23,909 nucleotides of DNA from a virus. The DNA lies in the IMG/VR virus record IMGVR_UViG_3300042691_004196, positions 1 to 23,909 of that record. The stretch is one strand, 5' to 3'. Both the position numbers and the translations under genes were made by a program. Under the pieces are notes generated by a model. The model was not told the origin of the DNA and did not search any database. It saw only the letters and a list, made by a program, of their open reading frames with translations. Position 1 is the stretch's first letter. Every line of letters begins with the position of its first letter. Positions 7,962-11,363 of the stretch are shown here, piece by piece.

Positions 7962-8984
7962 ATGAAACTGCCCGAATCGGATCATAGCATTTCTGCGCTG
8001 ATTGACAAGCACCACGAAGGCAAAAGCGAAGCGCCAAGGGCGCATTTAGGGGCCAGCACGCTGGGCCACCCCTGTGACCGCTGGCTGTGGCTGTCGTTTC
8101 GCTGGGCGGTGCAGCCCAAGTTCTCAGGCCGAATCCTGCGCCTGTTCCGTCGGGGACAGAACGAGGAAACCACCATCATCAGCGATCTTCGCGCCATTGG
8201 GTGCGACGTTCGCAAGGTATCAGCACAGCACCGGGTGGATTTTGGAAGCCACGTTTCTGGATCGCTGGACGCCATCATCGACAAGGGTGTGCCAGAAGCG
8301 CCCAAGGCAAAACACGTTGCCGAGTTCAAGACGCACAGCAAGAAGAGTTTTGATGCGCTGGTGAAAGACGGCGTAGAGAAGTCCAAGCCCGAGCACTACG
8401 TCCAGATGCAAGTCTACATGCACGGCACTGGCATTGATCGGGCGCTGTATGTGGCGGTCTGTAAAGACGATGACAGGATGCACACCGAGCGGGTGAAGTA
8501 CGACAAAGAAGTGGCTGATAAGGCGATTCGCCGAGGCCACTACATCACGCTGTCAGACAGGATACCGCCGCCGATCAGCACCGATGCGAGTTGGTATCAG
8601 TGCAAGTTCTGTGACGCCCATGATTTCTGTCATGGGGAAAAGACCACCAAGCATGCCAACTGTCGCACCTGCGCTCATGCAACGCCATTGTCAGACAGCA
8701 CTTGGCACTGCGCTCGCTGGGACGATGTGATCCCGGTAGAGGCCCAGCAAGCCGGGTGCGAGAGCCATGTGCTGCATCCTGATCTGGTGCCGTGGCAGCG
8801 CAAGGATGGGCCGAACGAATGGACTGCGATCTACATGATCGACGGCAAGGAGGTGGCTAATGGCCAGCCAGCCAATGGCGTGTTTGGCAGCAAGGAGATC
8901 CTCGCCAACCCTAGCGAGTGCGCTGATCCTGGTGAGCAACTTTCCAAGTTGCGGGAAGAGTTCAATGGAAGGATTGTGGGGTAA
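7962..8984 (+). CDS. Cas4/RecB-like PD-(D/E)XK nuclease with Fe-S cysteines
   Basis: 340 aa. The nuclease core has D103 (GSLDAII), E121-x-K123 (VAEFKTH) and the Q-x3-Y motif (Q148, Y152). C38 (GHPCDR) together with C214-x2-C217-x5-C223 has the spacing of the [4Fe-4S] cluster in Cas4 and AddB nucleases. A second cysteine set, C234, C237, C250 and C266, follows and could bind zinc. Such phage exonucleases resect DNA ends to give single strands for a Sak4-type annealing protein. The stop overlaps by one base (TAATG) an ATG that opens a helicase remnant. The SD is weak. Confident as a PD-(D/E)XK nuclease; the cluster and the direction of digestion are inferred from motifs. Confidence 0.9.
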   Translation: MKLPESDHSISALIDKHHEGKSEAPRAHLGASTLGHPCDRWLWLSFRWAVQPKFSGRILRLFRRGQNEETTIISDLRAIGCDVRKVSAQHRVDFGSHVSGSLDAIIDKGVPEAPKAKHVAEFKTHSKKSFDALVKDGVEKSKPEHYVQMQVYMHGTGIDRALYVAVCKDDDRMHTERVKYDKEVADKAIRRGHYITLSDRIPPPISTDASWYQCKFCDAHDFCHGEKTTKHANCRTCAHATPLSDSTWHCARWDDVIPVEAQQAGCESHVLHPDLVPWQRKDGPNEWTAIYMIDGKEVANGQPANGVFGSKEILANPSECADPGEQLSKLREEFNGRIVG

Positions 8985-9052
8985 TGCTGCGTGACTACCA
9001 ACAACGCACCATAGACCAGCTCTATGCGCTACAATACAAATATTCTTACTAA
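8984..9052 (+). pseudogene. remnant of an older helicase N-terminus (15 codons plus run-on)
   Basis: An ATG overlapping the nuclease stop (TAATG) opens a 22-codon frame. Its first 15 residues, MLRDYQQRTIDQLYA, align without gaps with the start of the intact SF2 helicase (LREYQSRALSMLYA, residues 6-19), 8 of 14 identical with D/E and I/L among the rest. After Ala15 (about 9028) the similarity stops and the frame runs into AT-rich sequence ending at TAA 9050-9052. The simplest reading is the severed 5' end of a former helicase gene, cut where the HNH gene now begins. A short regulatory ORF is the less likely alternative. Confidence 0.75.
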
Positions 9053-9069
9053 GCAAGGATATTTACATC

Positions 9070-9744
9070 ATGGGCAAGCCAGTAATCAACATGATTGGAT
9101 TTAAGTCCAACCGATGGACTGTCGTATCTGAAACAGCAAAACCAGTCAATGCAAAACAAACTGGGAAGTTCTGGAATTGCATTTGTGAATGCGGAACTGA
9201 AAAAGTAGTTTATGGCGAAACGATTAGAAGTGGAACCAGTAAGTCTTGTGGATGTTTGAAGGTTGAGAAAAGCACAATTGCAATGAAGGCAATGCGATTG
9301 CGTCAGTCTGGATCTTTGCGTGATCGATTTTTTTCTAGATTCGTCAAACTTGATAGCGGCTGTTGGCAGTGGAGGGCACACACAGACAAAGACGGGTATG
9401 GCGTATTGCCTGGTGATCGTCAAAACACAAGAGCGCATCGACTCTCTTACGAAATTCACCGAGGTGCCATTCCTGATGATCTTATTGTTTGCCACCATTG
9501 CGACAACCCAAGTTGTGTCAACCCAGATCATTTATTTGTTGGCACACAAAAAGACAATGCACAAGACGCGCTGAAAAAAAGACGCCATTACGTTGGAGAA
9601 AAAAATGGGCGGTCTAAGTTGACTGAAGAAAACGTCAAAGAGATATTGGCCTCCAACCTAAATGGCCAGCAATTGGCAAACAAGTTTAGCGTCACTAGAT
9701 CAACAATCAACAATGTCAGGAAAGGCGTCTCGTGGCAAAAATAG
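9070..9744 (+). CDS. HNH homing-type endonuclease
   Basis: 224 aa. Residues 35-64 hold a zinc-binding-like module (WNCICECG then SKSCGCLK). The HNH nuclease core runs from RAHRLSYEIH (H123) through VCHHCDNPSCVNPDHLFVG (C141, H142, H143, C144, C149, N151, H154). Residues 180-224 are a helix-turn-helix of the kind used by homing enzymes for site recognition (EENVKEIL, then QQLANKFSVTRSTINNV). CAAGGAT gives an SD, and TACAAT at 9030-9035 could be its own -10. Sampled lines are AT-rich (25 of 60 G+C at both 9121-9180 and 9661-9720), unlike the upstream nuclease. It stands between a helicase remnant and an intact helicase, as expected of a mobile endonuclease gene. Its 3' end overlaps the helicase start by 13 bp. 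Confidence 0.93.
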   Translation: MGKPVINMIGFKSNRWTVVSETAKPVNAKQTGKFWNCICECGTEKVVYGETIRSGTSKSCGCLKVEKSTIAMKAMRLRQSGSLRDRFFSRFVKLDSGCWQWRAHTDKDGYGVLPGDRQNTRAHRLSYEIHRGAIPDDLIVCHHCDNPSCVNPDHLFVGTQKDNAQDALKKRRHYVGEKNGRSKLTEENVKEILASNLNGQQLANKFSVTRSTINNVRKGVSWQK

Positions 9745-11363
9745 AACTGAGAGAGTATCAGTCTCGCGCCCTCTCAATGCTCTACGCATGGTTTGAAAAG
9801 AACACAACGGGCCATCCTGTATTGAATATGCCCGGTGGTTCTGGCAAGTCTGTTGTGATTGCATCGCTGGCAAAAGATGCGCTGCAAAACTGGCCAGACA
9901 CACGCATCCTGATGTTGGTTCATTCTAAAGAGTTGATTCTTCAAAACGCTGACAAGCTACGCAAGCTGTGGCCTGGTGCGCCACTTGGGATCTATAGCGC
10001 TAGTGTTGGCAAGCGCGATCTGAGTGAACCGATCACATATGCAGGCATTGGATCTGTAGCTAAACGCGCCAAGGAGATCGGTCACATTGATCTTTGCATC
10101 ATTGACGAAGTTCACGCTGTATCAACTGCTGAGAGTGGCATTTACCGCAATCTAATTGCCGACCTGTTGGAGATCAACCCAGCCATGCGGATTGTTGGCT
10201 TGAGCGCCAGCCCGTACAGACTTGGGCACGGCTTGATAACTGAAGGCCAAACCGCGATCTTTTCCGAGATATTGGAGCCTGTCAGCATTGAGGAACTGGT
10301 GTTCAAAACGCATCTTGTCCCGCTGCGCTCCAAGATCACCAAGCACAAGCTAGAAACAGACGGTCTGCATAAACGCCAGGGTGAATATATTGCCTCTGAG
10401 ATGGAGGCAAAGTTCAATACCGATGATCACAACAGCGCTGTTGTTCAAGAAATCATTGAGAAGGCAGGCAACAGAAATCATTGGCTGATCTTTTGCTCTG
10501 GTGTTGCTCACTCTGAGGCTGTAGCCGAGTGCTTTCGCTCGGCTGGCATTGCTGCCGAATCTTTAGATGCAACACATAGCAAGCCCGAGCGCGAACGCAA
10601 GCTGGCCGATTTTGAGTCTGGAAAGATGCGGGCTATTTGCTCGGTTGGAATTTTGACCACTGGCTACGATTTTCCTGCGCTAGATTGCATTGCATTTTTG
10701 CGATCCACCATGTCGCCGGGGCTATATCTTCAAATGGCTGTGCGCGGTATGAGACCGCACCCTGGAAAGGCAGACTGTCTGGTGCTGGACTTCGCTGGCG
10801 TGGTGGAGATGCACGGCCCGATCACTGCCGTTCAGCCCCCTAAGAAGGGCGGCGACGGAGATGGCGAAGCGCCTGTCAAGGTCTGTGATAACTGCGACGA
10901 ACTGTGCCCCATCTCAGCGCTCGTTTGCCCAGCCTGTGGGCATCCTTTTCCAGAGCGCGAGGAAAAGAAACTCAAGCTGCACAACGATGACATCATGGGC
11001 ATGGCGGGCAAGGATTTTGAGGTCACCAGTTGGAGCTGGCGCAGGCACATCAGCAAGGCCAGCGGCAACCTCATGCTGGCCTGCACCTACTACGGGAGCC
11101 TGTCGGACAAGCCGATCACCGAGTACCTGCCGGTGCTAAACGATGGTTATGCTGGTCAGATGGCACTGCAAAAGCTGGTGGCCATTGCGGAAAAAGGCGG
11201 GGCTGATCTGTCTAGGATCAACATTCTGGACGGTAGTGAGGCGCTCGATTACATCGTCATCCAGATGGGCAAGGCGAAATATCCGAACTCCATTGAGTAC
11301 CGCATGGATGGCAAGTTTTTCAAAGTCGTAAGGAGAACGTGGGATGAGACACCAAGAACCTGA
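9732..11363 (+). CDS. DEAD/DEAH-box SF2 helicase with C-terminal zinc finger
   Basis: 543 aa, starting at a GTG inside the HNH gene. Motifs: PGGSGKS (34-40, Walker A), DEVH (125-128), SAS (158-160), and QMAVRGMRPHPGK (334-346, motif VI with arginine finger). A zinc-binding C385-x2-C388-x3-C392 and C399-x2-C402 cluster follows. Helicases of this type in phage replication blocks unwind DNA for recombination-dependent replication, here beside Sak4 and a Cas4-like nuclease. Base composition changes inside the gene: 24 of 60 G+C at 10441-10500 but 40 of 60 at 10801-10860, so it may be a mosaic of two alleles. It overlaps the next gene by 20 bp. Confidence 0.93.
   Translation: MAKIELREYQSRALSMLYAWFEKNTTGHPVLNMPGGSGKSVVIASLAKDALQNWPDTRILMLVHSKELILQNADKLRKLWPGAPLGIYSASVGKRDLSEPITYAGIGSVAKRAKEIGHIDLCIIDEVHAVSTAESGIYRNLIADLLEINPAMRIVGLSASPYRLGHGLITEGQTAIFSEILEPVSIEELVFKTHLVPLRSKITKHKLETDGLHKRQGEYIASEMEAKFNTDDHNSAVVQEIIEKAGNRNHWLIFCSGVAHSEAVAECFRSAGIAAESLDATHSKPERERKLADFESGKMRAICSVGILTTGYDFPALDCIAFLRSTMSPGLYLQMAVRGMRPHPGKADCLVLDFAGVVEMHGPITAVQPPKKGGDGDGEAPVKVCDNCDELCPISALVCPACGHPFPEREEKKLKLHNDDIMGMAGKDFEVTSWSWRRHISKASGNLMLACTYYGSLSDKPITEYLPVLNDGYAGQMALQKLVAIAEKGGADLSRINILDGSEALDYIVIQMGKAKYPNSIEYRMDGKFFKVVRRTWDETPRT

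Follow-up and report, generated by a model that had tools for sequence, protein, structure and literature searches.

An HNH endonuclease gene between a helicase relic and a chimeric helicase in a phage genome, a probable case of intronless homing with co-conversion

The HNH endonuclease gene and its surroundings

We analyzed a viral contig of 23,909 nucleotides (nt), IMG/VR record IMGVR_UViG_3300042691_004196, hereafter the window, in which a gene for a putative HNH homing endonuclease lies between a Cas4-domain exonuclease gene and a helicase gene, all on the forward strand. A search of sequenced bacterial genomes found no relative. The exonuclease gene (7962-8984; PHROG 1990, E 1.5e-99) ends with a TAA stop at 8982-8984, and the pentamer TAATG couples it to a 22-codon open reading frame (ORF) that begins with an ATG at 8984-8986, reads MLRDYQQRTIDQLYALQYKYSY and stops at 9050-9052 (8984-9052 in all). 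The first 15 codons of this ORF (MLRDYQQRTIDQLYA, 8984-9028) derive from a helicase gene, as described below, and the last 7 are sequence of the inserted element, whose left end (9029-9069) begins with a conserved [CT]TACAAT. The same left border, with a closely similar leader, is found in P0001-type loci. A Shine-Dalgarno-like AAGGA (9055-9059) precedes the HNH gene (9070-9744), and the helicase begins with a GTG at 9732 that overlaps the end of the HNH ORF; the HNH ORF lies between two helicase starts. The GC content is 0.40-0.53 across the insert and the first part of the helicase (0.44-0.53 from 9600 to 10,800), compared to mostly 0.53-0.64 on both flanks.

The HNH protein has 224 amino acids and matches Pfam HNH_3 (E 7.9e-13, 48.3 bits against a cut-off of 24.8), which makes it a candidate member of the I-HmuI-like HNH homing endonucleases. 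It consists of an N-terminal zinc-ribbon-like region (CxC...CGC), the HNH core, and a C-terminal tail resembling a helix-turn-helix. The core, CHxCDNPxCVNPxHLFxGT, is conserved in 14 relatives, in which the C, H, N, and P positions are invariant. A sequence search of the PDB with the protein gave no meaningful match. In eight pairs of HNH genes the ratio of nonsynonymous to synonymous substitution rates was about 0.03-0.1; the gene is under strong purifying selection, as expected of an active element, and we predict that the endonuclease is active.

A helicase relic and a mosaic helicase gene

The residues encoded by the relic upstream of the HNH gene include LRDYQQRTIDQLYA, and the corresponding residues of the helicase downstream, LREYQSRALSMLYA, are identical to these at 8 of 14 positions, a count given in the original prediction on this DNA and obtained again on recomputation. 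A distance of 760 bp separates the starts of the two copies. When the N-terminus of the helicase was aligned to the DNA preceding the HNH gene, the score was 46 (shuffled sequences had a mean of 27 and a maximum of 40), and by this measure the similarity is not due to chance. In nuclease-free relatives (L046, L049, L050, L054, L062, and others; loci are given as L numbers), the TAATG joins the exonuclease stop directly to an intact helicase gene that begins MLRDYQQRTIDQLYAWF...GNPCLVLPTGSGKSH, which we call type A. The window's helicase belongs to another allele type, type B (GHPVLNMPGGSGKSVV). The relic matches the intact helicase start of L046 at all 15 residues and at 40 of its 45 nt, and its DNA aligns with the type A start with a score of 45 (shuffle maximum 11). 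Among annotated phage records, the start of the MW202867 helicase matches the first 45 nt of the relic at 89%, with the match stopping exactly at the relic border, and Salicola phage CGphi29 matches 43 nt. The 15 codons are a relic of an older helicase 5' end, as had been predicted, and the gene downstream is not the severed half of that helicase, having its own diverged type B version of the same residues.

Both states of the site occur in related genomes. A TAATG, or a joint as tight as that, to a helicase beginning MLRDYQQRT, which the original prediction had suggested looking for, is present in 36 type A loci (19 in a sample chosen by exonuclease, described below), and HNH-helicase pairs are present in about 30 viral contigs. 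All of the relics that we found are type A, and each precedes an endonuclease gene; no relic ORF was seen before an intact helicase in a genome without the HNH gene, and phage helicases starting like the relic are common. In the loci L005/L229 and L026/L027 the relic ORF runs without a stop, in frame, into the HNH ORF, and a fusion of the 15 helicase codons to the nuclease is possible there. No relic was found when we checked other HNH-helicase pairs (Vibrio phage 1.191.O, Roseobacter phage CRP-902, and L109). In the Vibrio phage locus (L318, 3001-5660), a full-length homologue of the HNH protein of the window (52%) lies directly before a larger, different superfamily 1/2 helicase, and the start overlaps as it does here.

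When the window is compared to L046, which lacks the HNH gene, the helicase is a mosaic. The exonuclease genes are 82-97% identical in nucleotides per 30 codons, about 90% overall, with no drop in identity, so this gene is recipient sequence. The helicases are mostly 49-70% identical per 30 codons as far as about codon 350 (codons are numbered from the L of LREYQ), and from codon 361 to the end they are 92-100% identical except in two blocks of 84 and 72%. A two-rate model located the switch at codon 345 (95% range 343-346), corresponding to window positions 10,773-10,784, with 60% identity to the left and 90% to the right (twice the log-likelihood ratio 175). The switch falls at the start of 23 nt of exact identity, CTGGTGCTGGACTTCGCTGGCGT (10,779-10,801, encoding LVLDFAGV), the first long identical run; the longest exact run within the motor to its left is 14 nt. 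We therefore divide the helicase gene into a foreign type B motor (9732-10777) and a native C-terminal part, comprising a zinc finger and a tail (10779-11363; about 89% identical in nucleotides to L046), with the 23-nt identity as the right recombination junction. The window motor is 93% identical in amino acids to the motors of two other HNH carriers, L007 and L229. Because the helicase is RadD-like (PDB 6jde, E 1.4e-43, match 5-372), the exchanged part appears to be essentially the whole two-domain motor and the kept part the zinc-finger tail, reading the domains from the family.

The converted tract is one-sided, extending about 1.05 kb to the right. The flank has been converted to donor sequence and the sequence outside the tract is that of the recipient, which is the pattern of co-conversion, and the earlier proposal that a foreign helicase 5' region arrived together with the HNH gene holds, now with a mapped right end. 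Two of its details required correction. The HNH gene had been described as inserted exactly at the helicase start; it does lie between the two copies, but the insertion point is after codon 15 and not at the start codon. The 15-codon stretch at 8984-9028 is helicase-derived as stated, but the affected stretch extends to about 10,790.

The same site in other phages

The switch at this point of the helicase is not confined to the window. We found it at codon 341-348 in nine other loci, each compared with its own closest empty relative: L229, L178, L090, L213, L004, L003, L006, L201, and L058, with right-side identities of 78-96%. In all, about ten recipient backgrounds have a switch in this range, and the same switch is seen in many carriers without a visible relic (L085, L096, L101, L020, L018, L009, L031, L040, and GIY-YIG loci). 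Shorter tracts are found in L218 and L245, where the switch falls at codons 153 and 158, respectively. In the pair L004 and L055, both loci have the same gene between exonuclease and helicase with a spacing of 587 nt, and one is filled while the other is empty; L178 and L231 are a third filled/empty pair. Judging from the differing closest recipients, and not from a formal tree, these events were probably independent.

A stronger conservation of the tail could produce such a mosaic by itself. This is ruled out by 400 pairs of nuclease-free type A helicases, in which the motor is more alike than the tail (75.9 vs 65.4%). Among 13 distinct HNH carriers, exonuclease distances correlate with distances of the helicase tail (r 0.74) far more than with those of the motor (r 0.21), and motors can be up to 96% identical where the exonucleases share at most 65% (L095 and L101).

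At least five kinds of endonuclease occupy this helicase site. Besides the HNH protein of the window, the proteins found directly before type B or type C (GHPCxVLPTGSGKSxVI) motors are a 191-amino-acid HNH_3 group, an Endonuclease VII-like protein of 211 amino acids (PF02945, E 7.7e-20), GIY-YIG proteins, and a 253-amino-acid protein that has an H-N-H-like motif and no Pfam match. A 238-amino-acid protein in L063 is GIY-YIG by eye, with Pfam matching NUMOD-like parts only. Endonuclease VII-type enzymes are established as homing endonucleases, as in the case of F-CphI (PMC6083498). The relic ends at nt 38 before the GIY-YIG genes, at 45 before the window HNH gene, at 50 before the 191-amino-acid HNH gene, and at 51 or later before the Endonuclease VII-like gene, so all ends fall within about 13 nt. 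Both the relic ends and the 3' joints to the helicase vary from one nuclease group to another, and the insertions by different groups therefore look independent. In L016 (1883-2081), an 88-amino-acid end of an Endonuclease VII-like protein remains before a type B helicase, a decayed nuclease with the motor retained.

Because our first collection of loci started from a type B query, and the relic pattern favored type A, we drew a second sample by exonuclease alone. It consists of 75 loci and covers relatives of the window's exonuclease, not all phages. In this sample a nuclease is found in front of 15 of the 18 helicases of other types and 0 of the 57 of the target type; after de-replication the counts are 13/16 and 0/31 (Fisher p 4e-9). 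This sample agrees with the first collection, and a sampling artifact is ruled out. The larger set, which is query-biased, includes four loci (L069-L072) in which an Endonuclease VII-like gene (49%) precedes a helicase that is more distant and was labeled type A by our script. Judged by sequence, the genes that do occupy the gap before type A helicases are methyltransferases, DUF551 proteins, and others; no nuclease domain was found in the four representatives that were scanned, and the remainder were judged by eye.

A homing model, its alternatives, and known parallels

We consider it very probable that the window records intronless homing with co-conversion, by an element that carries a replacement motor which would rescue the helicase and at the same time remove the target of a putative cleavage. 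In the ancestor, as in L046, TAATG would have linked the exonuclease gene to a type A helicase. During a mixed infection, this type A allele would be cut or nicked, at codon 15 or shortly after it, by the HNH endonuclease of another phage. Repair would then copy the donor allele, that is, the HNH gene and the donor's own diverged helicase motor, and copying would stop at the first real block of homology past the motor, the LVLDFAGV segment. The left end would lie after codon 15 of the old gene, with its first 15 codons persisting as a dead relic. Since the 3' end of the HNH gene supplies a new, overlapping helicase start, the gene would survive the insertion as a chimera of foreign motor and native C-terminal part. 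The one-sided tract suggests that the cut was made at codon 15 or somewhere to its right. Because the insertion interrupts the site on its left side and the foreign motor rewords it on its right side, the new allele would be expected to resist the nuclease.

Several observations weigh against this reading. For L021-L023, L057, and L095 we found no empty relative that is close enough, and these loci show no clear switch. Some type B motors lack a recognized nuclease (L008, L011, L035, and L013), indicating that motor exchange can occur, or persist, without one; these could be later nuclease losses or separate exchanges. Distances of HNH genes and motors agree moderately (r 0.46), so the nuclease and the motor may have parted on occasion. 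The insertion site, DYQQRTID, shows good conservation in the targets, ranking 7th of 341 24-nt windows, without being the best conserved, and target-site conservation is only a weak pointer to the predicted cut. Finally, the AlphaFold model of the HNH protein (mean predicted local distance difference test score 45.8) is too poor to use.

The strongest alternative, which we nevertheless regard as unlikely, is that ordinary modular recombination swapped the motor at conserved hinges and that the HNH gene is a passenger beside one of them. The right junction does coincide with a conserved domain border, where the RecA-like motor ends, and the nuclease-free type B motors of L008 and L011 are attached to tails that resemble those of type A relatives, both of which would fit such a process. 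However, a rise in identity at codon 338-350 was seen in 0/400 of the nuclease-free type A pairs, and in the exonuclease-chosen sample unrelated nucleases sit at the same point before non-target motors and never before target-type ones. The relic border is also one-sided, which is not what a crossover of two alleles at homologous positions would leave.

A second possibility concerns the relic rather than the motor: it may have been retained for a function, as a leader through which translation of the HNH gene is coupled to that of the exonuclease. The TAATG is indeed unbroken, and the relic is in frame with the HNH ORF in L005 and L026. Many carriers of this HNH gene (L007, L085, L095, and L097), however, have kept the conserved leader and the AAGGA but no more than a few bases of the relic, and several carriers retain only ATGCTG or less before the conserved start of the element. 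A leader role is thus very improbable as the reason for the relic's existence, although it may be a side benefit.

We attach almost no weight to illegitimate insertion of the HNH gene with a simple local duplication of the helicase 5' end and nothing foreign, which would explain why the same 14 residues flank the HNH gene in two copies. The mosaic refutes it: the downstream copy and the next 1 kb or so are about 60% identical to the gene type of the relic, as against about 90% on both flanks, and the closest kin of the motor are other HNH carriers. HNH genes often reside in group I introns. Phage examples have been listed (PMC3984707), and the relic might accordingly be taken as the 5' exon of a gene interrupted by a self-splicing intron or intein, but this can be dismissed with near certainty, since the relic's residues recur at the start of the downstream gene, which does not resume where the relic ends, the nuclease gene has its own start and a stop that overlaps the helicase start, and an Rfam search for an intron at the HNH gene gave no match.

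Homing with co-conversion has well-studied parallels in T-even phages, where free-standing endonucleases convert flanking sequence and exclude markers (PMC2988022) and a resistant donor allele is an accepted part of the model (PMC12724721). As with SegF, SegG, and MobE, an intronless endonuclease gene here lies beside a gene of DNA metabolism, the donor flank has been co-converted, and the donor allele is assumed to resist its own nuclease. Unlike those cases, the nuclease gene here lies within the 5' coding region of the target gene and rebuilds that gene with a new start and a whole motor, a fossil of the old 5' end remains, and unrelated endonuclease groups occupy one site. In fungal mitochondria, mobile ORFs supply a gene with a new 3' end, and the native end persists as a remnant, as in atp6 of Allomyces macrogynus and atp6, atp9, cox2, and nad3 of Glomus sp. 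(PMC3630166). In both situations an endonuclease ORF and a diverged terminal coding piece replace the native end, whose terminus stays behind unused. In the fungal organelles it is the 3' end that is replaced and the remnant is downstream, while in these phages it is the 5' end, with the remnant upstream and the replacement reaching about 1 kb into the gene. By analogy, our element works like a terminal-replacement mobile ORF in mirror image only, and we do not claim common descent.

Nucleases are also known at the borders of exchanged segments in phages, the homing endonuclease gene islands of Barth et al. 2023 (PMC10448857), in which helicases are not mentioned. There, as here, endonuclease genes mark the edges of exchanged segments beside core genes, but the islands are large and lie between nucleases, whereas this is a single tract smaller than a gene with its border mapped against an empty relative. 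We found no description of the present arrangement in a search of the open-licence literature.

Co-conversion by T-even endonucleases is known from laboratory crosses, and natural events are usually visible only as the presence or absence of a gene. In the present case the 5' end that was displaced can still be read, there is an empty relative for comparison, and about ten recipient backgrounds allow the end of the tract to be mapped. The results suggest that a selfish nuclease can carry over the greater part of a replication or repair enzyme and not merely a neutral flank, and that unrelated nucleases have converged on the same gene with what would be the same rescue strategy. Chimeric helicases of this kind will mislead phylogenies based on the whole gene. 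The loci also provide a natural test set for the coexistence of nucleases, target alleles, and presumably resistant alleles.

A broader idea, on which we are evenly divided, is that these loci amount to a natural home-and-rescue drive, in which, within one phage group, at least five kinds of endonuclease each acquired a reworded motor resistant to cleavage, independently of one another, and then invaded phages that had the old motor. The engineered counterpart is the gene drive HomeR (PMC7968924), in which a nuclease likewise attacks a gene while a functional version, expected to escape cleavage, is supplied by the inserted cassette. The phage system would differ from HomeR in being natural and in using protein endonucleases, with a natural diverged allele as the rescue of a helicase whose necessity is only supposed. 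If the idea is true, a single site within a gene divides the population between alleles that are targets and resistant alleles that come with a nuclease, and relics record successive invasions.

The operon has other insertions as well. The Cas4-type exonuclease gene is split near codon 221-231 in L017 (1603-2425), L027 (2171-2894), and L043 (366-1068) by inserts of 700-820 nt whose ORF is GIY-YIG-like (L017) or resembles a zinc-ribbon nuclease (L027 and L043), so that the operon has two sites of nuclease insertion; a search of the split genes against Rfam gave no intron. In type A loci (L128, L130, L131, L061, L048, L052, L055, and others), the joint between the exonuclease stop and the helicase ATG is a hot spot for cargo, and genes for C5 and N4/N6 DNA methyltransferases and DUF551 proteins, a gene that by eye is PAPS-reductase-like, and others are found there before an intact helicase. 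In L084, L213, L088, L091, L012, L003, and L004, an extra gene or sequence lies between the exonuclease and the relic and is followed by the nuclease and the foreign motor, and from such stacked insertions successive invasions can be ordered.

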